Below, piece by piece: positions 18,291-57,785 of a DNA stretch of 64,000 bases. This DNA comes from Isoetes taiwanensis. Taxonomy: Eukaryota > Streptophyta > Lycopodiopsida > Isoetales > Isoetaceae. Made by a program: the position numbers and the translations under genes. The stretch covers positions 8,603,132 to 8,667,131 of the forward strand of contig JAJEKV010000011.1 in the NCBI GenBank assembly GCA_021234155.1. Reading direction: 5' to 3'. Below the pieces are notes generated by a model. That model searched no databases. It had not been told where the DNA came from and saw only the letters and a list, made by a program, of their open reading frames with translations. Every line of letters begins with the position of its first letter. The first letter of the stretch is position 1.

Positions 18291-18350
18291 AAGGACTTTC
18301 TTAACAGAACTGGGATCGAGGACGAAGGTCACTGGATGAAGGCTAAAGCA

Positions 18351-19977: not shown

Positions 19978-19982
19978 CGTAA

Positions 19983-20566
19983 TGTTTGGGGTCTGGGTTC
20001 GGGAACTCCTGGAAGACAGCCCTCTGTGAGGACCCGTGGATCTAACAGGAGAGTCCGGGGGACTATGTCACGCGGGATTTGCAAGAAGAGAAGAAGAAGA
20101 AGAAAACAGAACAAATGAGAGGAAAATGATAAGCTTCTTTGATATCAATGATGAACATACATGAGCTCTCGCAATAGAGAGAAAAACTGAAAGGAGACAA
20201 GACTCAAAACTCATCTAAAAACTCATGTGCTAGCTCTACTCATATATATAGTACAATGGCCTTGGGCCCAATATAGACACTCCGACCGATCTCGTGCCGA
20301 CTCCTCGAAGGAGGCCCGATTTGGGAATGTTGGCGGTGCCTCTTGAAGTGCCTAGAATCACTTGACGCCGCTGGGCGGTGACGGGTCAATACTTGTCCGA
20401 GCGGGCGCCTCTTGTTGACGCCACACGCTTTGACTGCGCGTGGTCTCGCTGCTTTGGTCTTTTCATGGAGCCTTTGATGGCTGACCCGGTACGACCGAGG
20501 ATCCTTGAGCTTGACCTGGTCTGTCAGATGCATGAATAGTCCGCACTGTGAGGCACAGGACTAACA
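19983..20566 (-). repeat. 3' LTR of the gypsy element
   Basis: 584 bp with TG...CA termini. It shares nearly its whole length with 30469-31045, including a GAAGAAGAAGAAGAAAA run, a TATATATA segment at about 20,243, and the GCATGAATAGTCC and GGACTAACA words near its end. It has small indels relative to the other LTR. Confidence 0.95.
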
Positions 20567-20578
20567 CTCCCCCCACCA
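20567..20578 (-). other. Polypurine tract
   Basis: Directly inside the 3' LTR, the minus strand reads GGTGGGGGGAG then TGTTAG of the LTR. It abuts the LTR as a second-strand primer should. Confidence 0.85.
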
Positions 20579-20579
20579 A

Positions 20580-24480: not shown

Positions 24481-24539
24481 ATGCCGTTCTAGTCACTTTT
24501 CGTGGTGTTTAAGCGCCTTGAACTCAGACATTTTGTTGA

Positions 24540-25530
24540 TTTTCGCCGTCTGCGGTGATAAAATGTTTTGAGACGAAAACCATTAACCAATGTAGGTAAT
24601 GGAGTGCCATCTAACTCGCCAGGTTGGAAAACGCTTGGTCTAACCACTTGAACAATTTGATAAGGGCCAAGCCAACTAAACTTGAGTTTACCCGAAAAAT
24701 TTTTGTACCGGAATCATAAAGAAGAACCAAATCGCCTTCTTTGAATGTTTTTGTGTCTTCGACGCTTGTCATGTAAAGATTTTTGCAATCGTTGTCCATG
24801 GAGAACACGTAATATAAGCATCTCTTCAAGTTCATCCAACTGCTCTAATTGATAGACCCTTTCTTTGAGTCGCGGCAGTGGATTATGAGCAGAGAGCTTG
24901 AAAACGGAGTGTTGGAAGGATGTATTCAAACGGCATGAGAGCTTCCCCGACCATAAACCAATTTAAAAGGAGTGTGACCGTAGCAATCTTTGAAACAAGT
25001 ATTGTAGGCCCAAAGAACAAGAGGGAAGTTTTTGTCCGCCAACTGTATGGGAAGCGCCACAAATTTTCTTGAGAATGGTGACGAGTTTTGTTGGTGCTTT
25101 CGCCAAACCATTACCTTGAGGATAGTAAGGTGTGCTCTTGTGATGATGTATCGGGAGATAACCACGCCTCCTTGATAGTATGATTGATGAAATGAACACC
25201 ACTGGCCACCGACCCAGCCCGCGGGGCAGCCGAATCGCGGATAATTTGTTGATAGAGGACCCTAGGCGCGGCTTTGCCGCAGTTGTTGTCCGGAAGTGCA
25301 CAAGCTTCCGCCCATTTGGTGGCGTGAAGTCGGTGAGAACCGTGAATGTATCGGGCACGGGTGTGCCACGCAGAGGATCTATAGGTCCCACAAAGTCCAT
25401 TCCCCATTTGCTGAAGGGAAGGCGCATGGCGACGGCGCCAAGGGAAGAGCCACGGGCCGTGGGGCGCCCCACTCACCGGCAAGCCACACGCGGCGGGCGT
25501 GGGCGTGAGCATCTTTGAAGAGTGGGCCAA
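24540..25530 (-). pseudogene. Gypsy integrase
   Basis: Catalytic core pieces are visible in two frames. FSKWGMDFVGPIDPLRGTP holds the first Asp. GVHFINHTIKEA follows the region of the second Asp, which has been lost or frameshifted. YYPQGNGLAKAPTK lies where the family has YHPQ-NG-xE, so the catalytic Glu is replaced. The C-terminal tail ELDGTPLPTLVNGFRLK is near 24,570. The protein would insert the cDNA into the chromosome; this copy is inactive. Confidence 0.85.
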
Positions 25531-25884
25531 TAATACCCGCCTAGAAGGATTTTTGCGGCCGTGGTGTCACCATGAAAATGACCACCACCTAGCCCTTGAT
25601 GAGCTTCTCGAACAATATCCGAACTTCATGAGGTAGAACACAGCCAAGGAAGGATGGTGTCCTTACCTTTTTTGTAGAGATGTCCCGCAACCATGGTGTA
25701 GTCACGGACCTCTGGAGAAATTGATGGCGACGGATTGCCGCCAAGGTGAGAGAGCCGCCTCGCCTTTCCGTGGACGGGCACCCGTGGAGGAGGTACCGCT
25801 AAAAATCATGGAACCAATGTGGTGTTGCCGTGGACTAAAAAGAGCCGAGCATCGTGAAAGGCGCCCGAGACTCGGGTTGAGGGA

Positions 25885-26240
25885 TCATCCGCGGTGGATG
25901 CGTGAAAGATAATCCGTGAACGACATGAGATTTGCCGCCTTTATGAACGATTTCAAAAGGAGCAAATTCTTGGAGAAAAGGACCCAACGAGCAATGCGCC
26001 CGTGGACTTGTTGATCAAATAGAGGAGTGCTTGGTGGTCCACAAAGAACTTGATTTGATCGCCTAAAAAGGTAATGACGGAAGCGTTGGACACGTAAAAT
26101 GAGACCCAAAGCTTCACGCCCGGTGGCGTAATAGTTGGCGCTTCGCCAGAATTAGCGCTGGCCGGGGCGAAGCGATTTGGTTTGTCGGTCGCGATCATAT
26201 TCTTGAGAAAGAACAGCCCAATAGCAAACGCCGGTGACAT
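25885..26240 (-). pseudogene. Gypsy RNase H domain
   Basis: QIKFFVDHQALLYLINK matches the VDH-L-YL core of Ty3/gypsy RNase H, which degrades the RNA of the RNA/DNA hybrid. RIARWVLF follows in the overlapping frame. It lies between RT and integrase as expected, and frames are broken. Confidence 0.8.
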
Positions 26241-27300
26241 CTACATGAACGTGAAAGGGCTTGTCCCATTGAGGAGGAACAAGAACCGGGTGCTCGAGTA
26301 AGCAAAAGCTTCACCGTTGGAAAGCAAAGATCCGGCCTGGGAATTCCAAGCCCGTGTAGATTCGCCACCCGCGGAGTTTATGAATGGGATCTCGCAATGG
26401 TCGCTAGTCCGTATGAAGGTGGAGTAATAATTGACCTTACCCGTGAAAGAGCGTGTCTCCTTGATATTAACCGGTGCTTGAGCCTTGAGCACAATAATCG
26501 ATTTTGGCGGGATCCGTGGTGATACCCGCCGGTCGACAACATGGCCTAACGTAACACCGGAGGTGACGAAAAAGGTGCATTTGTCGGGATTGAGACTAAT
26601 ACGGACTCATCACATTTCTCGAAGACGAAGTTCCAATTTATCCAAATGGTCACCCATGGAATCAGAGGGCGAGAAGTCATCTTGAAAAAATTGCAAGAAG
26701 GGATTTTCCTTCATGAAATCATGAAAAACCGAGAGCATGATGCGTTGAAACGTTGATGGAGAGTTTGATAATCCAAAAGGAACCACCTTGTAGGCAAAAA
26801 GTGACCCACGGGTGGTGAAAGTAGTCTTGAGTTGATCGATTCTTTGATTGAGATCCGATTGTAGCCAGAAAAACCATCCATGAAAGAGTACATCTCATGT
26901 CCACCCCTCTTCCAGAACCTCGGTCCGTGAAGGGAAGTGGAAAATGATCACGCCCGCGGGCCGGGATTGAGTTTCCGATAGTCCCACTGAGACGCGGATC
27001 TTACCATTGTGTTTAAGGGCAATGACGATGGGGCTCACCCATTCGTAATGTTTGACCTCATAGATCAAACCCGCAGAAGAAGTTTGTCAATTTCCGCCTT
27101 GACGCGATCACGGTAATTAGGGTTGAGCCGGTATCGTCGTTGCTGCTAATCGGGTCGCATCGATTTGGTAGGGAATGGTGAGTTCCCCCAAGCTTTTGTT
27201 GATTCCCAAGATCTTTGTAACTCCAGCGAAAAAATGTGTTTGAATTTTTGAGCGACTTGACGGCCCTGATTACGATAAGGAGCCTAAGATTTGCAACAAT
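26241..27300 (-). pseudogene. Gypsy reverse transcriptase
   Basis: MYSFMDGFSGYN (about 26,893) is the RT box with the first catalytic Asp. The active-site box reads FQDDFSPSDSMGDHL near 26,680 (Y/F-x-D-D), then KCTFFVTSGVTLGHVV, then SFTGKVNYYSTFIRT. Frameshifts between boxes inactivate it. Confidence 0.85.
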
Positions 27301-27447
27301 GCGGACAGTTGATTGTTGCCGGCGCCCACAATCTCGACCGGAGTGCGAATATGGGGTATTACCGATTATCCCGGACAATGTGCGGGAGGTTGGAGCATAA
27401 CCCGGATGCGTGGCACTTTGCGTGGTGAAAAGAGGGGTTGCTCGGTT

Positions 27448-28662
27448 TCATCCAGCCAGAGGTTGCTTCATGGCGTGTACATCAACGGGGAGTTGCGGGA
27501 GATTCAAAGATTGAAAAGTGATCAACACGTTGGATTCGATTGCAAGGAGCCGTGTAAGGGTCAAGCAAAGCGACCACCGGTCCCGGTCAAGAGTCATTTC
27601 TCCCCAAGGATCAAAGATATTCGGGGGTAGGATGACGGAGAGGCGCACTTCGCAGTGGAGCCTGAACTTGATAAATATTCCGAGCTTCTTCAGAATGCGG
27701 TTGAGAGAGAGGGTTCGCATTGTCAACGTAAAATGATCCCCGCCGCTTGCAAGTCCATGGTGGCATTGAGATGACCATCGGTGATGACTAATCGGTCCGT
27801 GGCCCAAGAATGGATACTCTTTGCTTGGCGGAGAAAAGGTCCGCCGACCAAAGATTTCATAGTCACCGGGATCTTCGCCTTTCCAAACTCCAAATTCCAT
27901 GGGGAAGCGGAGATCACCAATGTTGATGTGAAGAATAGGTGTGACGCCTTGAGGTCGCGTGATATGGCCATTAGCCAATTTGATGTCATATGGGGCACGA
28001 AAGAGTTGTGTGATGCCCATTTGTTTGCGGAGTTTATCCGTGATGAGATTGATCGCGCTACCTCCATCTATTTGAACATGGTTGACTTGTCGATTACCCA
28101 CCGTGGCATGGACCGTGGGTGTAGAGGTAGCCACGTGACCCAACCAAAACAGCTTGGGAGTGGTAAACCGGTCCTTGAGAGCGTGACGAAGTTTCAAAAT
28201 GGTTGCCAAGCTTAAAGGAATTTTGATCTTGGCGAAGCCCTCTTGGAGTTCTAGAGGCACATGAGAAAAAGGATCCGCCGGTTCCACCTGGTGTGCGTGA
28301 GGCGTGGGCGTGGGAAGCAAGAACTTCTTTGAGTAAGTCAACCCGGCAAGCAATATTGGGATACGCCCGAGAGCGTGGAGGTTGAGATGTGGAAGGGTAT
28401 CTTGTCTTTGTTGAGCTCTAGTGGTGGCATGAACATTTGCCAATGCGGCCTTCCGCAGCCTTGCATGAGGTTCAAAAATGCTTTGGCGAACTTTTGGCAT
28501 GACATGTGGCATGAGCTTCTCCAAGTCGTGCAAAGTGAACCTTTTTTTTTTTTCGCCCTCATGAGGAATGGTGTCAACCGCAAAGGCGTGTTGCGTGCCA
28601 TTCGGAATAATGGTCAAAGGGCGTGATGCCTTGGTCCGGGGCGTGAAACTAAACCAACCCAA
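27448..28662 (-). CDS. Gypsy protease region, 404-codon open frame
   Basis: This is the longest open frame in the window. Residues 195-250 read VQIDGGSAINLITDKLRKQM, then IKLANG and ILHINIGDLRFPMEF. This is the retropepsin fold with catalytic DGGS at residue 199 (about 28,068; family form D-S/T/G-G). Residues 1-190 link gag to protease; the C-terminal part runs toward RT but ends at a stop. The protease would process the gag-pol polyprotein. It is fused to, but out of frame with, gag upstream. Confidence 0.8.
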   Translation of the reverse strand: MGWFSFTPRTKASRPLTIIPNGTQHAFAVDTIPHEGEKKKRFTLHDLEKLMPHVMPKVRQSIFEPHARLRKAALANVHATTRAQQRQDTLPHLNLHALGRIPILLAGLTYSKKFLLPTPTPHAHQVEPADPFSHVPLELQEGFAKIKIPLSLATILKLRHALKDRFTTPKLFWLGHVATSTPTVHATVGNRQVNHVQIDGGSAINLITDKLRKQMGITQLFRAPYDIKLANGHITRPQGVTPILHINIGDLRFPMEFGVWKGEDPGDYEIFGRRTFSPPSKEYPFLGHGPISHHRWSSQCHHGLASGGDHFTLTMRTLSLNRILKKLGIFIKFRLHCEVRLSVILPPNIFDPWGEMTLDRDRWSLCLTLTRLLAIESNVLITFQSLNLPQLPVDVHAMKQPLAG

Positions 28663-30100
28663 TTTGACGACCGGACTGGAGGATTAAGTGCCCTAAAAAA
28701 TTTCCTCTTGTGCTTGTTGATCCAAATGGAGGTTGATTTGTCGGAGCTGGTTGATAGCGTGATTGCCGAGGGGCTCTTGGTGGCTTCTTGAGAACCGGTC
28801 TCGGGCCTTGTTTGCCATTAGCAATCCAGAGTTGGTAAGCCGTGAGGCGGACCGATGTGGTCTGATTTGTGCCAGGAAGCTGTACTTGAACTTGTGGAAG
28901 TTGAGGACACGCCGTGGTGGTATGACCCCATTCTTGACAGTGATAACACCGAAGCTTTAGAAGGATCAAAAGGAGGACGTGGGTTTGATCCCCGTGGTTG
29001 CTCCTAATTCGATAGAGTTGCGTGGGTTGCACCCGGCGGTGGTGGCCGATAGTGCGATTGTTGCCGAGGTGTGGTTTGCACTTGATAAACCATTTTGTTG
29101 CGGAATGGTGTGGGATGAGCGCGAGTGCACTCTTCCGTGGCATGATTGCACATGTTGCATCGCTTGCAATGAGGCGGGCCATTGGTGGAGTTGCACTCAT
29201 TTGCCAAATGGCCTTGGTATTTGCAAATATGGCACCAGATTTGACCGCTACTGTGGAGTAGCGTGTTGAGGCTGAGCATTTGTTTGTGGAACCATGACAG
29301 TGGAATGAGCGGAGCTCTTGAAGAGCCACGGGAGGAAACATTGACCGAAAGTGATTGACAAGGTCGATAGCCTTGCTCCAAAGTCTTGGGACGGTGTATT
29401 CAATCATGAGTCGAATAACCGGAGGAAGTCCTTGGAGAAACCGCACAAAATCGGGCTCATGTGGGGTACTCCTTGAGCTTACTTAGCGTAATGTGAAGTC
29501 GATCCGCAAAATCCCCCGTGCACTGTGGGCTCTTGTTGAAGTTCATTGAGTTGCTTGAGATGAAGTTGATCATCATCCGTGGTTCCATAATGAGACGTAA
29601 AAGCGGTTCTCATTTCGGACCAGTCTTGTTTCCAATGGCTTTTGTTGGACATGAGCCATTGATGAGGAGAGCCACGCAGGTGGTGGAAAAGATGTGAAAT
29701 TTCAGTTGAGGTTGCGCATGACCATTTAGGGGACGCCTAGAGCCTCAAATTCTTCCATGTGGGCTTGAGCACTTTGGTCTAACGGTTTGCCTTCGTGTTG
29801 CCAAAGGTGGGATAAGTCGTTTTAGAGTCCGAAGGTAGATGTGAAAGTGTCAATGGACAGAACAAGATAGTGAGGATATTGAGGTTGAGTTGATGTGGCA
29901 TGGTGCCCCAAGGACCCCGATGAAGGGGTGATCGCGGGTTGAGAAACCGGGCAGTCGGAGCATTGGTTTCGGAGATCCGTAAGGTTGTAAAACGTGAAGA
30001 GCAAAGGGGAAACGAGGAAAAGGATATTCCCGGTAGGCGCAAAGGAGACGGTGGGATATCCGCAGGTTCACCCGGGGAGATGATGGTTGTGAAGGAAGAG
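28649..30100 (-). pseudogene. Gypsy gag with three CCHC zinc knuckles
   Basis: From upstream, GKPLDQSAQAHMEEFEALGV (about 29,770) and FLQGLPPVIRLMIEYTVPR (29,446) are typical retrotransposon gag words. Then come the zinc knuckles CHICKYQGHLANEC (29193-29234), CKRCNMCNHATEEC (29127-29168) and CYHCQEWGHTTTAC (28907-28948), all C-X2-C-X4-H-X4-C. Knuckles 1-2 and knuckle 3 lie in different frames, so at least one frameshift separates them. Gag packages the element RNA into particles. Confidence 0.9.
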
Positions 30101-30468
30101 GCGATGGCCCCAAGAATGATGGATGTAGGCATGTTCGTGGGGTATGAAAGTACGGTTGAGAAGGTTGAGCCCGATAAGGCTCCCCGATAGTGATGAGGGG
30201 ACCGAGGTTGTGAGCAATGTTTGCACGCTTTGGGGCGGGAACTGGACGAGACAGACACGAGGGGTGGGTGGCGCTCGACCGAGCCCTAGACCAAGATGGC
30301 CTCTATGTCATAAGCGCATCCATACATGTCACCTAACAGCTTTCTACGCCGATGGCGCCCCAAGCGGGAGGCCGTTCGAGAAAGGAGTTCTTCCGGGCGT
30401 GAAATTACGGGATGCATATGGCGCATGTAAGAAAGTAGGATGGAATCGCACGGCGGGCAAATGGGCGA

Positions 30469-31045
30469 TGTTTGGGGTCTGGGTTCGAACTCTGGAAGAT
30501 GCCCCGTGGAGGACCCGTGGATCTAACAGAGAGTCCGGGGACTATGTCACGCCGGATTTGCAAGAAGAGAAGAAGAAGAAGAAAACGTAACAAAATGAGA
30601 GGAAATGATAAGCTTCCTTTGATATCAATGATGAACATACATGAGCTCTCACAATAGAGAGAAAACCGAAAGGAGACAAGACTCAAAACTCATCTAAAAA
30701 CTCATGTGCTAGCTCTACTCATATATATAGTACAATGGCCTTGGGCCCAATATAGACACTGACCGATCTCGGTGCCGACTCTCGAAGGAGGCCCGATTAG
30801 GTGAATGTTGGCGGTGCCTCTTGAAGTGCCTAGAATCACGCCGACGCCGACGACGGTGGCGGTGACGGGTCGCCACTTGTCCGAAGCGGGCGCCTCTTGT
30901 TGACGGCCACGTGCTTTGACCGCGTGGTTCCGCCGCTTGGTCTTTCATGAGCCTTTGATGGCTGACCCGGTCGACCGAGGATCCTTGAGCTTGACGGGTG
31001 CGTCAGATGCATGAATAGTCCTATACCAGAGGCACGGGACTAACA
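30469..31045 (-). repeat. 5' LTR of the gypsy element
   Basis: 577 bp with TG...CA ends, near-identical in layout to 19983-20566. It is the promoter copy for the minus-strand element. A TATATATA box at 30,720-30,729 is a plausible TATA element. The sequence just inside (minus strand TCGCCCATTTGCC) resembles a tRNA-Asp primer site only weakly. Confidence 0.95.
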
Positions 31046-31050
31046 CGTAA

Positions 31051-39592: not shown

Positions 39593-40664
39593 CTAGGGCA
39601 TATTGCCTATAATCGCATCGATCCGAGACATCGGATCGCCATTCTAGAATGGGACGAGCATGCATGTCATGCATGCATGCGGGCGGCGCATGCCCGTTTT
39701 GGGTTGGGAGTTCGCTATTTCGGTAGCGTTTACGCATCCACGTCTCATCGCTTCTTCCTCTTCTCTCAGTACTTTATTCTCTTTGAATTGTTTCCGAGGC
39801 GGGGAGGGGCTTCTTCCCGCCCTGGTTTAATAATTTGGCATATCTTTCTTGCTATCCTTTATGGCCTTTGGCCTCGCCCCTGTGACCTCGCCCTTGATCC
39901 TAGTTTGTAAGGAAGTTCTACGGTAGTGGCGCTTTGTTGGTTTCTTGCGAGTCCCATTCTAGAATCGCATCGATCGAGACATCGGATCGCCATTCTAGAA
40001 TGGGACGAGCATGCATGTCATGCATGCATGCGGGGCGATGCCCCGTTTTGGGTTGGGAGTTCGCTATTTCAGCGTTTCGCATCCACGTCTCATCGGTAGC
40101 TTCCTCTTCTCTCGCCAGCACCTTATTCTCTTTGAACCCACCCTCCCCCCTTCTTTGTTTATTGTACAAGTTCTTTTATCATGTTTTTCACCCACCCGGG
40201 TGATGCTTTTTCCACCCGCGGGTGATGCTATTCTCCGGTATGTTTTCGTTTGTTGTGTTGGTGATGTGCGTGCGGGGTTGGCGGCGGCATCCGTTTCGAC
40301 TTCTCCATGCGGGGGGTTTTGGGAGCGATTCTATGCCTTACGCTTGTCTAAGCCCCTTGTCGAAGGCTTATCACTAGGGTTTTTCCTCGAAAACCCGAAG
40401 GGGGTTTTTTTAATCCCGGTGATAAGCTTTTTCGGCAGTACATCAGCCACTCATCTATTAGCATTGTATTTGTTTTGGGGTCCAAATGATATAATTGGAT
40501 TTTCCCTTTATTTTTCGTGGGTAGTTCGCATGTGTGCGGCTACCCACTGTCCACCATTGTAGAAAATCTGCTGAGATGAATGAGAAGCCTATCTATCGGG
40601 CGCTTTGTTGGTTTCTTGCGAGTCCCATTCTAGAATACTAAATCTAGGGCATATTGCCTATAAT
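39593..40664 (+). mobile_element. Dimeric SINE-like element with 21-bp target duplication
   Basis: A perfect 21-bp direct repeat (39593-39613 and 40644-40664, around GGGCATATTGCC) flanks an insert 39614-40643. The insert is a head-to-tail dimer: unit 1 39614-39965 and unit 2 39966-40643. Both start with the hairpin CGATCCGA/TCGGATCG, palindrome CCATTCTAGAATGG and a GCATGCATG palindrome, and both end in GCTTTGTTGGTTTCTTGCGA then CCCATTCTAGAAT. Unit 2 contains GGGGGTTTTTTTAATCCCGG (about 40,400), the LINE A 3'-UTR box, while the head equals the LINE A 5' head at 18.2 kb. It therefore looks like an internally deleted LINE mobilised in trans. It encodes no protein I recognise. Confidence 0.85.
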
Positions 40665-42131: not shown

Positions 42132-42410
42132 AGAAGAGCCAAGGCCGAGAAAGGATATGCCACAGCATGAAAGAAACGCCAATTATTAAACCAAGGTGGA
42201 GAAGCCCTCCCCCGCACGGAATCAAAGAAAATAGAATAAGGTAATGCCGAGAGAGAAGAGGAAGCGCCGATGAGACGCTGATGCGTAACCACGCCCCTAA
42301 AATAGCTAACTCCCCAACCAGAAAGGGCATGCGCCGCATGCATGCATGCAAGACATGCATGCTCACCCCATTCTAGAATGGCGATCCGATGTCTCGGATC
42401 GATGGGATTA
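42132..42410 (-). mobile_element. SINE-like / LINE head fragment
   Basis: On the minus strand this matches unit 1 of the dimer at 39.6 kb: the CGATCCGA hairpin, CCATTCTAGAATGG, the GCATGCATG palindrome, GTTGGGGAGTTAGCTATTTT, GCGTCTCATCGG, then TGGTTTAATAATTGG. It is cut at 42,131 by the CACTA terminus. Confidence 0.75.
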
Positions 42411-43980
42411 TCAGTTAGGCTTTTATGCGGCAAAGACCAAACAAGCAATAACACCTCAACATCTCATCAAGCCCGATGGTAACATAGGTACAAAATCTCT
42501 TCCAACTCAAATAACTCATCGTCACCATCCGCAACATTCCAAAAGCATCCCAAAATATCTGAACAGAAAATGCCTACAAATAGCAAGAGAAGTTCATCCA
42601 TTCAACATCGCAAATTCCAAGGCAAATGCGAGGAAAGGGTAATGTGGATCTTATTTAGTAAATACTGAGAAGGAAAACTTGGGGACATAAATATTTCGAA
42701 GAATGCTTATTACATCCACAAAATGCCCAAGTCCTATACATACAGCAAGATAGTTAATGTATGGGTATATAGATCACGGCAAGAGTAATCTCGTCGAAAC
42801 AAAGCAAGGGTATCCAAAAAGGGTATCAATATAGAACTACAGTTGTGAAAAACATTTGTAAACAATACTGAAATGACCAAAGGATGCAAGAGACTCAAAC
42901 TGGCAGAAGCAAACTCTGCTCAAATATGGTAATTTATCCGACTCCAAGATTTTGTAGAGTTGTGAAAGGAATCAAGCAAGGGAAACAAAAGATAAACTCA
43001 CCTAAGGTTGTAATTCCTATGACCATCTTGCACCAACAAATATAGGGCTCTACTGTCTGACAAAATCTTGCACGTTATCCAACTAAAATACTTAAAATAG
43101 GTAGATACAAATGAAAATCTTTGGAAGCTACGCATAGGGTCAAGAATGAAATTATTGGCACATATGGCAGAATCTCTTGCTATCTATCCTCTAAATACCA
43201 AAGGTTCCATCAACGGTTCCATCTCCTGCTCAAAGAGAAGTCCATAGCCACGTCATCATAAAAGGAATTATCAATATTAGGAGGCCTTCAAAACTTACAG
43301 ATTATTTTATAGGCCTTCCAAAATACATAATGTACAGAAAACATTACCAACTTGACAAGTGTAATCCCCACCTTCACCTCCACCATGTGGCAAAAATAAT
43401 TTGTCAAAACACATAAAGTAGAGAAAATTGGAAAATAACTCATAGCAAGATATGCTAGCAAATAAGAGATATGTCTTAAGAAGCTATGGCCGAGGCAAAT
43501 TTATGTTAAGAAAATGCAAGTATCAAAGTAATCACAACACTTATTACGCTGGAAAGAAAAGGGGGCAAGTAAGAATGCTTATTAGGAATGGTCATCAATC
43601 TCTGTACCAGTACTTCAGATAAAAAGGTTATGCTTGACAGACCACAGATTTGATTCACCATCATTCTTGAAACAACTCAGCCAATTCAGCCAATGATCGG
43701 TTCTTAACTTGATGATGCACCACAAACTCCAAGCATGTCCATACCAATGACTAATGACTGCCTCCCAACTCGAGAATCAAAACTTGGACAAGGTATGAAC
43801 ACAAATAACGCACCGAGCTTGCTCCAATGGTACTAAGATGGAGAACAATGGAATCCTCAAGTCCCATTTGACCTCCTACAATGCTTTCTGCTCTAGAAGG
43901 TGGATCTTATTACCAACATGCATGCCCACCCTGATTATGCAGCCTTCCTTGAGTTTTATACTCAAGAGATGCTCCATATT
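42411..43980. other. AT-rich intergenic DNA
   Basis: No gene, RNA or repeat supported; ORFs are short and featureless. Confidence 0.55.
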
Positions 43981-45981: not shown

Positions 45982-48406
45982 TGTGACGACGCCCTCACTG
46001 TGATAACGATGCCCGCACTGCAGACCGTATACAAACAGGAGTTCATCCCCCGCACCAGCTCCACGCTGATACAGGGCCCTCCACATATCAATGTGACCGT
46101 CTAGAGTCCACAGTGGGAAGAGTGAAGGGGTCATTTTACCCCGTCTCCCCTCAGGGCCTACCTAGCTGCGGAAGCGTAAACATACACGTCAGTAACATAA
46201 CATCATATATCCACCTCGAAGGGTGGCACATCAACATCTGCATAGACAAAGATCAGCACAATACAAGGAAGTTCCTACCCAAGGCTCAGACTCCAGGGGG
46301 ATGACTGACAAGCTTGGGTCTCCAGAGTTCAGTGCAGACAAAATCATGACAATGGATTGGGCTGGCATAAGAACATGGCTTAGGGTTGTCCACTCCATCC
46401 GCCCCTCCTGTGCACATGATATGGTTTAAGGGTTCTTAGTGATTTTGTCCACTTAGTTCAACAATTGAATAGACAGAAACAGAAGAGATAATACTTTGAG
46501 TCTTATAAGATCTTTGATCAATAACAAAGGTTCTTGGTTTCCACAACCAAGCTACGGAGCATCCAGTTTCCACCCAACCGGATCCAGGGATTAAGGCAAA
46601 TTCCAGGGGAGCAACAAACGGATTAACCACGGTTTCTCTCTTTGGACTGAAATCTTTAGAAACACAACATTCACAACTCTAATAAGCTTCAAGGAGTAAC
46701 CACAACTTATGAATCCGGGTTGAATCCCACATTCAAGCAATTAATGGCGACCCACAGTCGGATTAGAAGTCGGATTGCAAACTAGGAGGGCCGGATGGCA
46801 ACTAAGAGGACCGGATTGCAGCAGCAGTATTCTCTCGAACTTCCCTGCAGGTCGAATTTAAGAAGTCACAGGCAGAATCTGGGTTACTGGTGCCGAATCC
46901 AGGAGCAGGGACGATTACTGGTGCCGGATTCCTTAGCGGAAGTCTGTTCACTTCCGAAATTGAGGTCCTGAATCTGGCTCCTATCTGTAAGCTGACCGAT
47001 AGACGTCTGGAGTTCTGCTTTCAACCTGTAACTGGCCGTAATCTTCTTCACTACCCCAAATCGGCCCCTTTTTGCCCACTTGAAGATTGTTGCATGCACT
47101 ATTTTGAGTCTCTCCCCGATCCACCCTTTTTTCCTTAGAGTTAGCTGCACGCCCAAATATCTCGATGCATTCCCTTTCTTTTAACTCAAAATATCTTTCA
47201 TTCTTTAAAGGTGGTTTGAAGTAACGCACCCTTGCCTAGTCTTTTAGACCATTGGAAATCTTATGCCCCATTGCCTTAATTCCCTGGACCACTCCCCCTA
47301 GCATGCTCCGTATCAGCACACTTTGCAGAGTAGGTTGACAAGTGTTGGGACCTGGCTGTAGCCCGCCGGGTGCATAGCCAAAGGGGCTATTCCTGGGTTA
47401 CATCTCCCCAGTCCCGATGTGGCAGGTAGGGATCGCTCCCTCCAGAGATCTACATGCTGACCCAAGGTGACTAGAGGGCCACTGCCCTTATTCGTTTTAA
47501 CCCACTGGAAGGTGAACACCACCCCACGGGTGTCGAGCCCATGCCTTACCCACACTCAGTGGCAAGCCATTAGACCTAGTCACTCTGATCCCCGGTAGGC
47601 CTTACACACCCGAGGGATGGGTCAAGGGTCGAACACCTAACCTCATTCTAAGCCAGGCTGCCCCTTCACCCACAACCGTGGGCTCCTCGTGCACAAAGGT
47701 AAATCTAGTAATGCACTAAGAGGGACTAGCTAGGAGCATCATCTACTAAGCTTTAAGTCTCTACCCCTTCCCAATACAATGAGTCCACGTAATACATCCG
47801 GCCCATCATATCAACATAAGTAATAAGAACTAATCTAATTCATAGAGTTAGGTTCTTTAGTTAGAGTCAATCTCGAGGATGCGCTTGGCTACTAAGGGTG
47901 ATTTAATAGGCTAAAACCTACTTTGGTTCAAGGCTGGAATAAGGTTTAGGCTATTCAATCAACCAAATACCTGGTCCTGGTTCACTCCTCTCGATCCGAA
48001 GGTGTCCATGTCCCCGCTCGCCGGGGATGCGGTCGGAAGGATGATCCGGACAAGCTGGGCGACTGGCAGATCGTGGGAGTTGGAATTGACTCCTCAGGCG
48101 CGTGAATCGGAGCTCGGAAGGTCTGTGGGCAAAAAAGGGAAAGTTAGAGTTTGGTGCCTTATGTAGGCTATCAGTTAGGTTTAGGGTTTCCATGACCCTT
48201 GGTCTACCTTTAATGGGTTAAAGGTCTAAAAGTGCGCACATTGCTAAGTGTGCGCACCATTGCAAGTTGCCCCCTAGGGCGCCCTTGCTTGGGTACACGC
48301 CGGCGCATTATCGCCGATTGGGGACGGCGTGGAATGCTGCGTGGCGGTGCGCAGTAATGACAAGATACGCCCCGGGACCGTGATATCTTGTCTTTGGAAC
48401 GCCACA
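45982..48406 (-). repeat. 3' LTR of the H3-carrying element (contains a solo LTR)
   Basis: It matches the other LTR over its length except for an 898-bp insertion at 46417-47314. Without that insertion and one target copy it would be about 1.52 kb, comparable to 1494 bp for the partner. The first about 50 bases diverge from the right LTR. Confidence 0.85.
46417..47314. mobile_element. Solo LTR of a second retrotransposon family
   Basis: The 898-bp insert starts TGATATGG and ends CCGTATCA (TG...CA with short inverted ends). It is flanked by GCACA at 46412-46416 and 47315-47319. The partner LTR at 56,712 has the uninterrupted site. A single LTR with target duplication is the product of recombination between two LTRs. 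The family is not otherwise present in the window. Confidence 0.9.
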
Positions 48407-48417
48407 TTCTCCCCACC
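48407..48417 (-). other. Polypurine tract
   Basis: The minus strand reads GGTGGGGAGAA directly before TGTGGCG of the 3' LTR. A similar GGTGGGGAGAA word lies again near 48,453. Confidence 0.8.
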
Positions 48418-48529
48418 TTGAAATGATCTTTCCGCCCGCAAAGCATCGTGGTTCTCCCCACCTTGGAATCTTCCTAACCTGCAATCAACTTGATGCATAC
48501 AATATTTTACTGTTATACTTACACAATTA

Positions 48530-51120
48530 TTAGGATTACCGTAAAGTAATATTAAAACATTATTACGTCATTACATTATCAAGTAACTTATCAATTCGTA
48601 ACTTCTATTAAAACAAGGTACTTCTTAGTTTCCGTTATCACAACATTTAGTTTATCACAATTTAACACTTTCATATACAATTATTATTTAAGGTACTCTT
48701 CATTCCTTGCAACACATTCCAACAAAATTGCGGTTGCAAGTCTTCGCGACCTTTAAAATCCCGCATTAATTTTACAATATCTATAATTACATACTTACTA
48801 TTTTAATTACTAGAATTACTCTAAGGTAATGTTTAAGACATTACTGTACTATTTCATTATCCAATTAACTTATCACTTCATAACTTAATCCACGCAAGAA
48901 GGTAATTATTAACCTTACTTAATACAACATTTAAGTTTATCAATTTCATACAAAATTTACACTTGTAAGGTACTCTTCATCCCTTGCAACACATTATAAC
49001 AAAATTTGTGTTGCAAGTCTTCGTAGCTCGACCTCCTTGCCCTCCGGAGCGCTCTATTGGCCCGCAGGTCGACACTACATTAGTACCATTTTAATTATTA
49101 ATAAAATTTTGGTTATATGGTGAGCACCCCACCTATCTACATGAATGCATGGCTAATCTCCCGGCGTAGGAAGAGGATGATTCTTCCATCGCGGGCCGAG
49201 GAGAGGCGGCGCTATCATGCCTATATCGCTCATGCCTACACCCTTAGTTGCCCCAAGTGGAGGATAGGTCCTTCCCGTATATGGGGCGTGAAGGCCAGAT
49301 TCCTCCTATCAAAGCATATATGGGGCTAAAGGTGCCTTTCCTATCAATGCATTCCTCAATGACCTCATTTCTCTCGAGGTCGTCTACTTCCGTGGGACAG
49401 AAGTAGACTTTGCAAGCGGCACCGCGGTCATGCCTACATTGACATTACACCACGTCCAAGAGATCACCACAATGGTTTCATCATCAGTAACAACGCATGC
49501 AACCCATACCTGGCATAGGTTGCATGCGTAGATTAATCTTAACTACACCTGAAACTAATCTAAACACAAATCGACATGCCTGAGCCAATTTTTGCTGGCT
49601 CCTTTAATGCATGTGATTAACATAATTACCCTAAGGTAATATTTATGAATTAACATTATCATAGTATCGGTTACATTACTTTCGATAGTACAATTATATT
49701 TACTCTAAGCTTTGCAATATTTAACGACTTTTAGATCGCGATTATTTAAACAATAACCCTGATTTTAGACCTATTGTTACATAGACAAGGTTTTAATTAA
49801 CATACACAAGAATTAGGTGTGCTTCTTATTCTCTTCCTTGGGTCCTGCATTACCCTTGGAAGTATATCCCTAAGATACACTTAAGTATATCTGAATTCTA
49901 TTTTCTATTTATATTTCTAAGGACCCGAGGTCATATAGCTATCCTTGGAAGGAATTGCATCCTTGCGAAGGATTAATTAACATGCTACCTCACATTACCA
50001 TTGTTATTTAACTTATTTCCCTATGATACATATACGTACAACAATTTCTATCCAGTTATTAAGATCTATATTTAACTTATCTATAAGATACATTAAAGCT
50101 TATAATACATGCGCACACCTTACCTAAGGCTAGCGCATCCACCCATTGAGCCGGCGTCGAGTAATTTGGAGATGACTTGGTCGTTGCATTGCTCCCATAG
50201 TTTTGCTCCACTTCATTGGTGTAGTTAGCTACTACGGCCGTCTCGCACGTTGAAGGCCTCCTGAGCACTAAGGTATCTATCTATTTTACGCTCTATTCGC
50301 TTCGGCCATTGCCGGAGTGAACTCTATTCGGTCAATTCGATGGCCCTTCAATCCCTAAGATGCAAGTACGTTCAATCATAAGATTGAGCCCGCCCACTTT
50401 CTTCGCAAAGAAAATGGTCTTGCACCCCTTCAATGACGTTGTACACAACGTCATATCTATTCTCTCCCCTTAAGAGGTTATATGCTTCTTACTTAGCACA
50501 TTAATTTACTAGCCTTAGCTAACATATATAATCGTTTAAGATGGATGCACATATTATGTTATCATTTATTTTAATATAGTTATGGGTTACCTACTTAGAT
50601 AGAACGATTCCAAACCACAAGGTTTTGTCATCATGACAATTCCTTTTGACTCAAAAGACTATTTGATTACTATAATTCTTATTTTAGATGTACCTTACAT
50701 GTATTATTCTTTTATATTCTAGAGATTCCCCCTTTCTTAGTTATTTAAATTCTTGGAATATTCCTACCAATCGAATTGATGTCATCGTAACAAGTTGGCC
50801 GGACTTGTTAGATTACTTCTTTTCTTTTGGTTGGATTATTCTTTTGGAGGTACTAGATTTATACATGGTCAACAATTATCCTAGTAATGATTCCTTCTTA
50901 GCGAGGTGATCAATCTCACCAAGTGGTTTCAATATGTTGGATGTCTGTTAACAATCGTGTATAATTTTAGTTACTCCTATGCGTTTCCTTCCCAATACTT
51001 GACGCTTAGCTCAATATTGGGGCAATCCTTTCGGCGAGAATATCTGGAAATGCCTTCTAATCCCAATATGGATATTACCGTCCATACATTTAACCTACTA
51101 GGCCGCATGGCCTTAGATCC
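48530..51120. repeat. AT-rich interior with ~290-bp degenerate tandem repeats
   Basis: Two units, about 48,530-48,760 and 48,820-49,030, share the order TTACTATTTCATTATC, ACTTATCA, AAGGTACTCTTCAT-CCTTGC, AACACATT and GTTGCAAGTCTTCG. A third, more diverged unit lies at about 49,615-49,880. TACCCTAAGGTAAT-type palindromes recur. No coding frame is supported; the plus-strand ORFs at 50,688-51,124 have no known motif. Confidence 0.6.
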
Positions 51121-51129
51121 TTGAGCTTG

Positions 51130-53960
51130 CTAGAAGCTCATCCACTCGTTGCCTGCTTGAAGTAGCAAGGTAACGTTCTTCCGAGTCGCTCGATGCTTCA
51201 GTCTCCTTGACGGTGGCTCCTCTTTGATGTAGAGGTTGACTTTGTTCGTTAGAAGCCTCTCATTGCTGGTGGCTTTGATGAGTAGCTGATCACTTGAAAT
51301 CTTCCATGCCGCTTTTCAAAAGCCTGAAGGTGACGCCGTTGAAAAAGATCTTTCATCTTGAACTCTTTGTCTTGGCAGCTAAAGGACGACTCTGTATCCG
51401 ATATTGTTTCTTCGACTCCATCGACGTCTCATACGTCGAGTCCTCTTGTCGTTATCGTGTTGCCCGAAGAGTGTTGAGGATGTGGATTGCTTCACCCCTG
51501 CAAATTGCCTGGCATCTCTTCTTTTGATCCGTTATGCTATGGGAGGGAAGGAATAACAGGGGAACTATTCATGCAAAACATATAGCTTACATAATTACAA
51601 TTACTACTAGCGCTATTAGGTCCCCCTTGTGCCTCCCTTCGAGTTACACGCCTACTCCTTGGCAATGTCATCGGTGTTCCTCCCGGTGCGATCTATATCC
51701 TCCTATTTGTACGTTGGCTCGTACTCCGGGGTAGTTTGTTGATATACCTGGGCCCTCCGATGTTTGTCGACTATGGCACAACACGCTTTGCATCACATTC
51801 TAACTAAAGGTGTGCTGGTCGTTGATGATTTTGACATTTTGGTCTGCTTCCTGATCCTGTTTTTGGGCGGTACTGTTCCCCCCTTCATGATACTTGAAGC
51901 TATTTGAAGGCATCTCTTGAGGCGGTGCGTGATTCCTTTGGCTATACTCCTCTGGAGTTGTTCTCTTCTGCAGTTGTTCTATGAATCGTCCATCCTTGGG
52001 TTCACCAAGTTGCGTGCAAGTCCGCGTGCAAGTCGTCGGCTCGCCTCGCCTCAACTTCCTTATTTGATCCCCTCGATCACATGGCTTGGACGTTGTCACG
52101 TTCCACAGTGCTATGCCGTCTTCTTGTCTTGAGGTACCTTCCGTGGCTTTGATTGTGCTCGTCAAGTTTTGATCCTCCTGTTGCCTCTAGGGAGCTCGTG
52201 GAAGAAGTCGGTTGCTAGCACTTCTCCAGCTTTCAGTTCCTGACCTTTGTCCCTCTATGCATGTTGGTCTCTCTGGCAAGTAAAGCATCATGGCTCTCCT
52301 CCCTGCTGGCTATGTTGTCGGGGTGATGGATCCCTATATCTGCGCAGCTTGACCCTTGAGTTGAAGAAGTACTTGCCTTAGATATACTATTGTCGTTGAA
52401 TAGCCTGGCTATTATCTTGAACTCTCTTTTGCCGAAGGTGCTTCAGTTGCTATGCTTGTCGTTAAGGTGTCGAATGCTTCTACCTTGGGCGTTTGACTTG
52501 CCACCTGTCGGAGATATGATCGGCTTCTTCTCTTCTAATTACTGGTAGGAGTACCTGACGAAGTCATCACCTAGTTGTTGAAGGCATATCTCCTCGTCGC
52601 GGTGCCTTTCGTAAGTGCATCTCCATCTAATCCACGTGTCATAGCGCATCCCCCTATATTACCACAAGGTGGAATTATTGTCGTCGAGATGTTGCCTTCT
52701 TAGTTGGTTCGTTGATGTTGGGTCGTTCCTCCTTCTATTGTTGAGGCCGCTCGTATAGTTCGTCAAGTGTTGCCGCTGCCACAAGAGGTAGTGTTGCGCC
52801 CTGACGATGTCCTGGTGCAGCGCTGATGATCTTGACATGACCGGTGTTATCTCTTGTTCTGACATTGGGTGGACGAGCGGTCTTCTACTTGAGGGCACTC
52901 CTTGAAGTGTTTGGAGTCGAAGATTTGCTTGGGCTCCGGTCATTTCTCTCTCGTACTTGCTCTTCCATTTTGATCTTGGGCTATAGTTGTGCTTCCTTGC
53001 TTCTTGGTAGTCGAAGTGAAGGAGCTTCCTGATCTAAGTGCTAAATCCGTAAAACCTGACTGTAAACATGTTTCTCCACTATATCTGTGAACGCCCGAGA
53101 TATACAATAGACATATACGCATTTACATTGGAATTTTAATTCATCCACTTTTCCAAAACAACAAGATCTACCTAAACGTTTATACTCCTTTTGGGTTTCC
53201 CCTCCTCCTATCGCGTTTGATTCTTCAGTTTTGCTGCATCTTCTTCGTTCTGGTTGACTCCGGGATTCCTTGAGATGCTGCTACTATTGTTGAGCTTCAT
53301 GTCTGATTCGAGCTCGTCACGCCAGTTACGAAGAGTGTTCGTCGATGTGATCCCTTGAGAAAGATGCTCCTCCTTAATGTGTATATTCGTCATGAGGAAT
53401 GCGGTGACCGCTCAACGTCCCTACATGCGGTGTGTCGTTGCAAAGTTGCCGTTGTGCGGTGCCGTTGATCGCTTGAGTAGGATCACCTGGCTGTTGCAGT
53501 CGGGCATTCTTGAATATCTTCGAAGCTCTGAGATCGTGGTCGGTAGGCAGGCATTGTCATTCCTCCGCAGGTTGAATTTTTGAGTGCGACTCCTGTTGCT
53601 TGGGCTTTGCTTCATTCTGAGGTGGCTCTCCTGTGCCTGGAAGTGTGGTCATCTCCATTGCCCCTACCATGGCTCCTTCTAGTCACCTTTGTGTGATTTG
53701 TACCTGCTGGCTAGGTCGTCTCCCCCGTCCCTTGGGTCCTATCCATTCGAGTCTCTCACTCCTTGGCTGACGTTTCATGACATTCGCTTGAGCTGCTGGG
53801 CTGCAAGGTCGTGGTGATCTTCCCTCTCTTGGGTCTACCTTTTCGGTCTCCTCTCCTTATCTGCCTATACATCGGCTGGGACCTTGATATCTTCAAGGAG
53901 TTGCGCCTCTAGCTCTTCTGTGGCTCTGGCCCCGTCCTTCGAAAGTAACGCTCGTATATT
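51130..53960 (-). pseudogene. Decayed Glu/Arg/Gln-rich frame of the H3-carrying element
   Basis: Several minus-strand open segments (51800-52165, 52659-52943, 52940-53122, 53208-53393, 53421-53615) have a hydrophilic, polar composition. Two of them (53208-53393 and 53421-53615) are in one frame, and the reading continues upstream to about 53,950 (ARATEELEAQLLEDIKVP) with many TGA and TAG stops. It could be the remains of a gag-like protein, but no zinc knuckle or gag box is visible. Confidence 0.35.
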
Positions 53961-54659
53961 CTAGAGTCTAAGGGTCTACTTGAAGGGCTCTCCTACAACA
54001 TTTTGGGCTCTATAAGCAAGCAAGATGGCTCGAGCAGCATTACTGGAGACATATCTATAATCTCCAAGTCTATGGACATTAGGACTTGTGGTATGGCATG
54101 ACATGAGGGTTGTTTTGCAAGACCTCCATGATGTTTGAGGCATACTCTAAGGTCCTAGCAAAGTTGGTTTGGGGGAGTCCAATCTCTACACATGGAGTGA
54201 CTTGGGCAGGTCTAGACTCTAGCTCCTTTCTAGGTACCCTGGCAATAGGGAGTGTCAATGTGGCAGCTATATAAGTCAAACTCTATTAGAAGGACACAGA
54301 ATTAGGTCAAGGTTTATGCCTTTGGCATGAGCAGAGGTGATGTACCAACAGTTGGACTTGGGTTGCTATGCTGAGGTCTAGATGACTATAACAAAGGGGT
54401 GTTCTTGGGCACTTCTATCTAGGAGTAAAGCATCAGCTTCGAGCCGAGAGCAATACCTGCAAGGTACTAATGGGATATGCTTCTATTTACAAACAAACCA
54501 CAGTTTGGAAAAACAAATCAAGGGTTTGAGCAATTTTGGTCATTTTGAACTGGGGGTTGACATTTTTAGCCTGTCTAGGCTGTCTAACGGTCCTATTGCA
54601 ACAAATTTCAGGTGATTTGGAGCTCTGTAGCTCAAGTTATGGAGGCTCAAAGTTTGGAG

Positions 54660-54941
54660 GTCTCACAGGTAGCGCCGCCTCGTTCAAAAGCTGGACTTTA
54701 GTTTCTTGACCAGGCGCGACGTGTGAGACATTGGCTCTAATTGGGTCAAACTTGTCCAATTTGGGTGATCTAAGGGTCAAATCATGCTAGTCTCATCGAT
54801 TAGGCAGAATGGACCCCTTACTTGGTCAATTTGGAGGTGTTTTGGTCTAGTTTGGACATGGTCTAGGTATGCAGGTCTCACAGGTAGCGCCTCGTCCAAA
54901 AACTAAACTTTAGTTTCTTTACCAGGCGCGACGTGTGAGAC
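54660..54941. repeat. Two hairpins downstream of the H3-like sequence
   Basis: Two inverted repeats with arms GTCTCACAGGTAGCGCC and GGCGCGACGTGTGAGAC lie at 54660-54729 and 54875-54941. The loops are near-identical (around AACTTTAGTTTCTT). The same arms, in variant form, recur on the other side of the H3-like sequence. Confidence 0.75.
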
Positions 54942-55082
54942 ATCACACTTTTTGGTCTGAAAATGTGCCATTTTACTAACGAAAGCTACTACTTGCTAAC
55001 TTGCCCTAATTAAATAAGTTTAGACACATAAAGTATTCAAAATTGATTTATATTACAAAATTTTTGATTATTTACAAAATGT

Positions 55083-55333
55083 TTATTTGGGATCTCCCTT
55101 AATTAAACTAGCTAATTGCATGTCCTTCCTCATGAGGGTTACTCGCTTCGCATGAACAGTGCAGGCTGTTGAGTCTTCAAAATGTTGGACCAGCTTCTGC
55201 TCTGCTGCTTCTTGAGCCTTGGCCTCCCGCTCTCGTTCTGCCCTCTCCTCTTCTTGTATCTCCTTCGGCCTCCTTGGCCTTTGGCTGTTTCGCCTTGTCG
55301 AGGAAGTCGAGTGGTCTGTTTGGTGCGCGCCAT
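55083..55333 (-). pseudogene. Histone H3-like sequence inside an LTR retrotransposon
   Basis: The minus-strand ATG (55331-55333; G at -3 and +4) begins [20 protein letters not shown]; the first eight residues after Met differ from the H3 tail ARTKQTAR at one position. K4 is retained and K9 is replaced. In another frame the sequence continues [19 protein letters not shown], then [15 protein letters not shown], then [18 protein letters not shown] and a stop at 55083-55085. EAAE--LV--FED----VHAKRVT-M-KD-QLA matches H3 helix 2 to helix 3. The VTLMRKD form recalls centromeric H3 variants. Helix 1 is replaced by a charged, coiled-coil-like stretch. The two parts are out of frame in this copy. It lies in sense orientation about 1 kb inside the 5' LTR. 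Chance is unlikely because both ends of H3 are present in order. Confidence 0.75.
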
Positions 55334-55833
55334 GTCGATCGGAGGTCGGGCGCCCTAAAATCGCTTCGAAATGCGGAGCAAATTTCTAAACAGGGAATCT
55401 ACAAATGAGGGGGGGGGGTCCTAGGTCTATTTATAGAATGGCCAATTCTGGTCAAATTACAAGCTGCCCTTTTGGATGGGCTAAAACACTTATTATCCTT
55501 TTACATGGCTTAATTTGGACCTTTCTAACCTCATGGTTCTAAGTCTAAGGCTTGGCCATTAATATTATCTAACATTATTAAAGCTTAAATCTAATTAAGA
55601 ATCATGTTTTAAACATAAACGATGCCCGCCCTCAGTGGTTGGCACGGGGGGGTTTTGAGGGGTAACCCTGTGGGTGGGAGGTTTAATTCCTGCTACTGTG
55701 GGAATCCTTTTAAGATGAGGTTCAAATAGATTCGAAAGCTAGACTAATCTAGCTAATTCCTAGCTTAAAATTCGAGTTACCATGTTATTTTTTTTTTGAA
55801 ATTTATGACTTTTAAAGATGTTTTAGGATCAAT

Positions 55834-56095
55834 GTCTCACAGCTAGCGCCCTGCTCAAAAATTAAAGTGCAGTTCTTTGACCAGGCGCGAGCTGGACTTT
55901 TAAAGATGTTTTAGGATCAATGTCTCACAGCTAGTGCCCTGCTCAAAAACTAAAGTGCAGTTCTTTGACCAGGCGCGAGCTGTGAGACCATCTTGGTTCT
56001 TTGACCAGGCGCGAGCTGTGAGACCACCTTGCCTGAGGACAAAGAGGTTACTAAAGTTTTGACCAGGCGCGAGCTGTGAGACCACCTTGCCTGAG
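55834..56095. repeat. Tandem hairpin array upstream of the H3-like sequence
   Basis: An 88-bp unit (55,808-55,895 and 55,896-55,983) carries arms GTCTCACAGCTAGCGCC and GGCGCGAGCTGTGAGAC. Two further right arms with GACCAGGCGCGAGCTGTGAG follow at about 56,000 and 56,062. The arms are variants of those at 54,660-54,941. Confidence 0.75.
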
Positions 56096-56278
56096 GAGGT
56101 TTTGGCTCATTCTTTTTAATCATATTAAGTTCCAATTCACTTATTAAGTTCCAATTCACTTAACTGTTACTAGCTTAGCACAAACTACAAAAATGAGAAA
56201 AAAATTTCCCACTTTTCGAGGTTTGAGGATCCTATCAAGTTAGTACTACTGGGAGCATGGTTAGTGCGCAAGAACATT

Positions 56279-56290
56279 GCTCTGATACCA
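56279..56290 (-). other. Primer binding site (initiator Met tRNA)
   Basis: The minus strand reads TGGTATCAGAGC one base inside the 5' LTR, the standard plant primer site complementary to the 3' end of initiator methionine tRNA. It fixes the orientation of the element. Confidence 0.9.
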
Positions 56291-56291
56291 C

Positions 56292-57785
56292 TGTGACGTC
56301 CCCTAGTCGTATACGATGCCCGCACCGTATACAAACAGGAGTTCATCCCCCGCACCAGCTCCACGCTGATACAGGGCCCTCCACATATCACTGTGACCGT
56401 CTAGAGTCCACAGTGGGAAGAGTGAAGGGGTCATTTTACCCCGTCTCCCTCAGGGCCTACCTAGTTGCGGAAGCGTAAACATACACGTCAGTAACATAAC
56501 ATCATATATCCACCTCGAAGGGTGGCACATCAACATCTGCATAGACAAAGATCAGCACAATACAAGGAAGTTCCTACCCAAGGCTCGGGACTCGGGGATG
56601 ACCCGACAAGCTTGGGTCTCGAGTTCAGTCGCGCATTTAATCATGACAATGGATTGGGCTGGCATAAGAACATGGCTTAGGGTTGTCCACTCCATCCGCC
56701 CCTCCTGTGCACACTTTGCAGAGTAGGTTGACAAGTGTTGGGACCTGGCTGTAGCCCGCCGGGTGCATAGCCAAAGGGGCTATTCCTGGGTTACATCTCC
56801 CCAGTCCCGATGGGGCAGGTAGGAATCGCTCCCTCCAGAGATCTACATGTTGACCCAAGGTGACTAGAGGGCCACTGCCCTTATTCGACTTAACCCACTG
56901 GAAGGTGAACACCACCCCACGGGTGTCGAGCCCATGCCTTACCCACACTCAGTGGCAAGCCATTAGACCTAGTCACTCTGGATCCCGGTAGGCCCCTTAC
57001 ACACCGGAGGGATCCGGTCAAGGGTCGAACACTAACCTCATTCTAAGCCGACTGCCCCTTCACCCACAACCAGGTGGGCTCTCGCGGCTGAGCCGAAATC
57101 TAGTAATGCACTAAGAGGGACTAGCTAGGAGCATCATCTACTAAGCTTTAAGTCTCTACCCCCCTTCCCAATACAATGAGTCCACAGAATACATCCGTCC
57201 ATCATATCAACATAAGTACTAAGAACTAATCTAATTCATAGAGTTAGGTTCTTTAGTTAGAGTCAATCTCAGGATCTGATTGGCCACTAAGGGTGATTTA
57301 ATAGGCTAAACCTACTGGTTCGAAGGCTGGAATAAGGTTTAGGCTATTCAATCGACCAAATACACAGTCCTCGTTCACTCCTCTCGATCCCGGCGTCCAT
57401 GTCTCGTTTCCGGCCGGGATGCGGTCGGAAGGATGATCCGACAAGCCGGGCGACCGGCATCGTGGGAGTTGGAATTGACTCCTCAGGCGCGCGAATCGGA
57501 GCTCGGAAGGTCTGTTGGCGAAAAAGGGAAAGTTAGGGTTTGGTGCCTTATGTAGGCTATCAGTTAGGTTTAGGGTTTCCATGACCCTTGGTCTACCTTT
57601 AATGGGTTAAAGGTCTAAAAGTGCGCACATTGCTAAATGTGCGCACCATTGCAAGTTGCCCCCTAGGGCCCTTTGCTTGGTACGCGTCGGCATTACCGCG
57701 TCGATTGGGGACGGCAGGTAACGCGTGCGTGGTCGGCAGATGCGATATCGCCCCGGGACCGTGATAATCGCGGCCGAACGTCACA
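56292..57785 (-). repeat. 5' LTR of the H3-carrying element
   Basis: 1494 bp starting TGTGACGTCCCC and ending AACGTCACA. It carries the uninterrupted version of the site occupied by the solo LTR in its partner. It contains the shared words CATTTTACCCCGTCTCCC and CACCACCCCACGGGTGTCGA. Confidence 0.9.

Follow-up and report, generated by a model that had tools for sequence, protein, structure and literature searches.

A decayed LTR retrotransposon with a broken histone H3-like cassette in Isoetes taiwanensis and a likely related chromovirus lineage carrying an H3-fold frame

The window analysed here, a stretch of 64,000 nucleotides of Isoetes taiwanensis DNA, contains on its minus strand a non-autonomous LTR retrotransposon (45982–57785) inserted within a LINE. 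The 5′ LTR (56292–57785, minus strand) is 1494 nt long and has the ends TGTGACG and CGTCACA, while the 3′ LTR (45982–48406, minus strand) differs by one mismatch at its inner end, which reads CGCCACA. The latter span includes an 899-nt nested insertion (46417–47315, no strand assigned), probably a solo LTR, which is bounded by TGATA and TATCA and flanked on both sides by GCACA, a 5-bp duplication. Within the LTR pair, 1356 of 1485 aligned sites are identical (K2P 0.093), and the alignment has 24 gap openings, the nested duplication being one of them. The primer binding site TGGTATCAGAGC (56279–56290, minus strand) lies 1 nt off the LTR and is found once only in the window, where 0.01 occurrences are expected; the polypurine tract GGTGGGGAGAA (48407–48417, minus strand), recognized by direct reading, adjoins the 3′ LTR. 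An earlier annotation made by a model from the letters of this DNA (the sequence-only reading) had described the LTR pair with these ends, the primer site and the polypurine tract, all of which proved to be present, the inner-end mismatch aside.

With respect to the insertion site, the LINE reading frame is restored when the two flanks are joined minus 5 bp, a LINE paralogue at 16563–16498 runs across the insertion joint, and the right flank scores as a reverse transcriptase (RT). The candidate target-site sequences, GCTTG and AGTTG, match at three of five bases. In the interior, a six-frame Pfam search at E values up to 1 detected no gag, pol or chromodomain; its sole match was to the Histone family, at 22.3 bits against a cut-off of 26.4. 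When eight open runs of the interior were scanned singly (E up to 10), matches other than Histone all stayed below cut-off, and the open runs are of chance length, the longest (128 aa) being equalled or exceeded in 18 of 200 simulations. The possibility of a hidden gag or pol was rejected on the six-frame result. The same method detected gag, protease, RT, RNase H and integrase in a better-preserved element, and in a decayed neighbouring element it placed RT and RNase H above cut-off and gag below it and found no integrase, which makes the control weak for integrase; with this reservation, the earlier statement that the interior lacks RT and integrase holds. Possessing LTRs, a primer site, a polypurine tract and a long interior devoid of gag-pol, the element has the make-up of a LARD or other non-autonomous element. 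The gag, pol and chromodomain of a chromovirus are absent from it, and it is classed below as a non-autonomous relative via an LTR segment only.

Elsewhere in the window, an LTR element at 19982–31046 has LTRs that are 89.8% identical over 600 nt, a decayed RT and RNase H, and a gag below cut-off. A dispersed repeat is also present in four copies, 82–92% alike and in both orientations (18093–18335, 39607–39853, 39879–40136 and 42164–42411). Comparison with viral contigs found no match, and scanning the window for tRNAs and Rfam families gave no hit.

The H3-like sequence of the retrotransposon extends from an ATG at 55333 to a stop at 55083 (55083–55333, minus strand) and occupies more than one frame. 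Its ATG is located 959 nt inward of the LTR edge in sense orientation, which bears out the earlier placement about 1 kb inside the 5′ LTR on the same strand, and a weak TATA-like TATAAATAG (55427–55435, minus strand) is found ~100 nt upstream of it, this 9-mer occurring twice on the same strand and not at all on the other. The cassette begins with MARTKQTTR (55307–55333, minus strand), an 8/9 match to the start of the H3 tail; matches of at least 8/9 to MARTKQTAR number one in the window and zero in 60 simulated windows. A linker of 95 nt (55212–55306, minus strand) separates this start from an H3 C-terminal piece (55092–55211, minus strand) that corresponds to residues 94–133, counting Met as 0, and agrees with host H3 at 24 of 40 residues and with element-borne H3 at 20–23 of 40. 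This 40-codon match sits just before a final PK, and the 18 residues that precede it match H3 at 3 positions. The 94 nt of linker that were tested displayed no similarity to H3, with 194 of 200 mononucleotide shuffles scoring equal or higher, and an H3 origin for this middle section was not seen against such shuffles.

The C-terminal piece matches Pfam Histone at 5.2e-08 and H3.1 in the PDB at 3.9e-10, and the frameshift-aware H3 score of the cassette is 129, as compared with 23–40 in 12 mononucleotide shuffles. A chance resemblance, in favour of which stands solely the absence of one open frame, is refuted by these E values, by the shuffles and by the simulated windows described above, and we consider its probability negligible. 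Among the 60 PDB matches listed for the cassette, all are H3 types except one centromeric and one unspecified chain, and no plant CENH3 chain was found that could serve as a reference. A protein-database search with the window frame gave three candidates, none of them significant, and single-sequence structure models of 55086–55274 and of a control taken from a second H3 relic near 10 kb (see below) each yielded one helix and are hence uninformative.

Alignment of the cassette indicates that the loop-2/helix-3 residues C110, H113, K115, R116, T118, K122 and D123 are kept, that R128 and R129 are lost, and that ~85 H3 codons are absent. The sequence-only reading had presented the MARTKQTTR start as joined to an H3 C-terminal end. 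Both parts are indeed present, but they lie in different frames rather than in one open frame, and the cassette contains no complete single-frame fold. With the two parts in different frames and the greater part of the fold absent, the window copy cannot make an H3. Palindromic units of ~67 nt are situated on both sides of the cassette (54660–54941 and 55834–56082), with nine arm matches where 0.02 are expected; four of six such stretches fold better than shuffles and two do not.

A Histone-family profile search of the same genome (1.66 Gb, 1110 contigs) returned 8704 first-look candidates, a number that is not a copy number because the candidates are loose. All of the 150 candidates that were scored lay above cut-off. 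Fifteen of these rows look like host H3 and span profile positions 2–122, and the eight of them for which loci are listed correspond to ordinary host H3 genes of 136 residues. The other 135 rows start further inside the profile, and an open frame of at least 400 aa is present in 36. We fetched 20 of the 135, choosing them among the top histone scores and in most cases for a long open frame, and because of this selection the intactness and conservation of these loci are overstated if taken as a family average. In 17 of the 20, a single open frame of 450–494 aa encodes an N-terminal domain connected through a charged linker to a complete H3 fold; the exceptions are L010, which lacks a start, and L027 and L028, which are shorter. 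We refer to this extra first frame, which is separate from gag and located between the primer site and gag, as ORF0.

The H3 fold of ORF0 is complete, comprising three helices, and agrees with host H3 at 77–82 of 92 residues (19 frames). Pfam analysis of six ORF0 frames gave Histone scores of 131–148 bits, with no other family over cut-off. The N-terminal domains constitute one family, in which nine aligned sequences share 31 invariant columns, and fall into subfamilies A (starting MPRFKLTVDL), B (starting MEEVKQVYKRKP) and C (starting MANTKSAPDP), which differ pairwise at 65–69% of N-domain sites. Searches with this domain produced a best E of 1.6 against the PDB, nothing over cut-off against Pfam (nine members) and 0 of 1329 candidates at E 1e-3 against the protein database. 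When whole ORF0 was used, 3719 of 7931 scored protein-database candidates matched, those listed (120) doing so via the H3 part; the six of these 120 that were examined contain at least two H3 copies each and no ORF0-type N-terminal domain.

In terms of the elements that carry ORF0, an exact copy of the primer site TGGTATCAGAGC is found upstream of the frame in 13 of the 20 loci, in 11 of those directly after the LTR end GGAGCGTCACAG, and the distance from primer site to first Met is ~600–760 nt (1036 nt in L010, which has lost its start). The fetched stretches yielded one complete element: L009 and L029 together make up a whole Ty3/gypsy chromovirus of 11.2 kb (C1019:5367715–5378883), in which the order is 5′ LTR, primer site, ORF0, capsid, zinc knuckle, protease, RT, RNase H, integrase, SH3-like domain, chromodomain and 3′ LTR. 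ORF0 is open, and gag-pol occupies another frame with one internal stop. Pfam scores are 132.6 bits for RVT_1, 74.0 for Integrase_H2C2 and 30.9 for Chromo (cut-off 25.1), with rve (28.4, cut-off 32.6) and the zinc knuckle falling below their cut-offs. Identity between the LTRs is 93.7% across 1403 aligned positions and 96.9% across 359, and a 5-bp duplication, CAATC, borders the element on both sides. The element thus combines gag, pol, a chromodomain behind the integrase, an LTR pair, a primer site and a target-site duplication, as is characteristic of chromoviruses. The gag/pol scan downstream of ORF0, which covered this element together with L018, L023 and L016, also revealed gag and protease in L018 and L023, and in L016 a gag below cut-off only.

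The sequence-only reading had proposed a dN/dS comparison across copies, and we performed it on 19 related ORF0 frames (171 pairs, L027 omitted), dropping pairs with fewer than 30 codons, with dS of 0.02 or less, or with saturated dS. For the H3 fold, median dN/dS is 0.036 (quartiles 0.023–0.053, largest 0.12) at a median dS of 0.74 (83 of 171 pairs); the corresponding medians are 0.15 (65 of 171 pairs) in the N-terminal domain and 0.19 (80 of 171 pairs) in the region between that domain and the fold. The ORF0 H3 fold is under strong purifying selection. A dN of 0.03 at this dS excludes neutral copies, though picking the best histone scores biases dN low. Captured host genes of plant LTR elements are often passengers according to the literature, and the open ORF0 frames could in principle be such passengers, amplified by chance in recent bursts. 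We judge this highly improbable in view of the fold ratio at so large a dS, and of frames that are open in three subfamilies whose N-terminal domains have diverged at about two-thirds of sites.

The tails of ORF0 are altered: ARTKQT is found in 0 of 19 frames and ARKS in one (L023), which departs from an H3 tail with its ARTKQT start and ARKS at both K9 and K27. As regards the earlier suggestion that the family may spread an H3 variant or a tail mimic, related elements do carry an open, selected H3-variant frame, but a mimic is unsupported at the level of the family because ARTKQT is missing from all 19 element-borne frames, and the window copy itself cannot make such a protein. In a tree of the fold, each of host H3, subfamily A and subfamily B is split from all remaining sequences by a supported branch. 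L023, a member of subfamily C, stands apart from A and B in this tree; its tail retains ARKSG, and this frame may be the closest to the host H3 from which ORF0 would derive.

The window LTR connects the broken cassette to these elements. At E values up to 1e-3 it matches 17 of the 20 ORF0 loci through a common segment (56639–56722, minus strand), represented in the 3′ LTR at 46271–46416 (minus strand). The matches consist mainly of this one segment, 45–154 nt long at 79–94% identity, and are correctly placed upstream of ORF0, while the neighbouring element's LTR, used as a control, matches 0 of 20 loci. In a separate comparison the LTR stretches in common measured 62–154 nt, and the interior DNA of the window element has no match to the ORF0 loci. 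Since the LTR segment, LTR end, primer site and position of the H3-like sequence are all held in common, the comparison identifies the window element as a decayed, non-autonomous relative of the ORF0 lineage, which would have been mobilized in trans.

With respect to the cassette itself, the comparison with genomic H3 genes that the sequence-only reading had also proposed gave a divided answer: the C-terminal piece matches host H3 at 24 of 40 residues, yet the cassette as a whole scores 56.2 bits to host H3 and 56.2 bits to ORF0. We considered a plain deletion of ORF0 as its source, and this tie decides neither way. The chance is close to even that the cassette instead arose separately from ORF0, through capture of part of a host H3 or CENH3 gene, or is the cargo of a smaller unit nested in this copy. 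Such an event would account for the host tail MARTKQT at the start where ORF0 has its N-terminal domain, for the somewhat better agreement of the C-terminal piece with host H3 than with ORF0, and for the palindromic units on either side; the motif VTLMRKD is reminiscent of CENH3. Nonetheless, the LTR segment gives the same lineage, the sense orientation and place are those of ORF0, the overall scores are equal, and no insertion marks were found on reading the surroundings of the cassette.

A second H3-like sequence in the window, a decayed fold at 10222–10568 (plus strand), is closest to the ORF0 of L023 (77.6% of 67 residues; 110 bits, versus 95–96 for host H3). This similarity makes it a probable relic of the ORF0 lineage, and its interpretation as a host H3 pseudogene was dropped on the same scores. 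No LTR pair was seen around it, its flanks presenting only a 24-nt direct repeat.

Taken together, these observations make it likely, in our view, that a Ty3/gypsy chromovirus lineage carries ORF0, that the product has a role in chromatin and that the window element is a relative. According to this model, a host H3 gene would have been captured and ORF0 built from it, yielding a putative H3 variant whose conserved fold may pair with H4. The product would enter or bind chromatin and bring its N-terminal domain there. Given the absence of the K4 motif and, in nearly every frame, of ARKS, its tail would be expected to escape marking at K4, K9 and K27, and chromatin containing the product would be unable to receive the customary H3K9 or H3K27 marks. 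A different function for a real and selected ORF0 is that the H3 fold serves the particle, binding element nucleic acid or gaining nuclear import via histone carriers, which would suit both the position of the frame beside gag and the preservation of a DNA-binding fold. We regard this as unlikely, as agreement with host H3 at 77–82 of 92 positions suggests that the contacts with H4 and with DNA were retained together and the chromodomain of the same element points to chromatin, although neither consideration is decisive.

A more specific version of the favoured chromatin role is that the ORF0 variant, being without the silencing lysines, sits in nucleosomes on or near the element, where it either blocks silencing marks or flags chromatin for the chromodomain of the integrase, so that the element would itself set part of its epigenetic state. 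We offer this proposal tentatively and hold it to be rather doubtful. Retrotransposon silencing works through marks on histone H3, and the ORF0 lineage would, if the proposal is true, represent a direct counter-move to it. ORF0 would also constitute a new kind of H3 variant with many copies in the genome, and an element-encoded H3 fold would make chromatin manipulation by the elements' own histone testable.

As described in the available portions of the respective papers, H3L genes occur in hAT transposons of Pyrenophora tritici-repentis (PMC3538342) and of Mycosphaerellaceae, where captured copies are inactivated (PMC6710886). These fungal systems resemble ORF0 in that a transposable element bears an H3-like gene with an altered tail, and the P. 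tritici-repentis H3L fully matches neither H3 nor CenH3 and has many open copies (PMC3538342). They differ from it in being DNA transposons whose H3 is carried as independent cargo rather than as a fusion with an element-specific domain (PMC3538342, PMC6710886). Among plants, the accessible parts of three reports describe LTR elements with extra frames or transduced genes, some of them host-derived (PMC7264820, PMC13317346, PMC3726574); those frames lie mostly between pol and the 3′ LTR, whereas ORF0 precedes gag, and the word "histone" has no occurrence in the main text of PMC13317346 or PMC3726574. A further parallel comes from Gypsy elements of Phalaenopsis, in which an AlkB domain, thought to counter host control, has become fixed (PMC9289625, in the sections available); this is likewise a host-derived domain retained by a Gypsy lineage, although the domain is a different one; no histone appears among the nine of 15 extra domains named in section 12 of its Results. 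PMC6554479, in the part available, deals with poplar CENH3.

In the open-access literature, to which our search was confined (leaving subscription papers and preprints outside it), the results listed included no H3-carrying plant LTR element, and we provisionally regard the lineage as new. The survey of plant LTR elements in PMC6317226 mentions histone once, in connection with chromodomains, and its main text has no occurrence of "additional ORF", "extra ORF" or "upstream of gag". The chromoviruses treated in the accessible part of that survey share with the L009+L029 element gag, protease, RT, RNase H, an integrase with chromodomain and a primer site of the tRNA-Met type, and it is the extra ORF0 with its H3 fold that sets the Isoetes element apart from them (PMC6317226).
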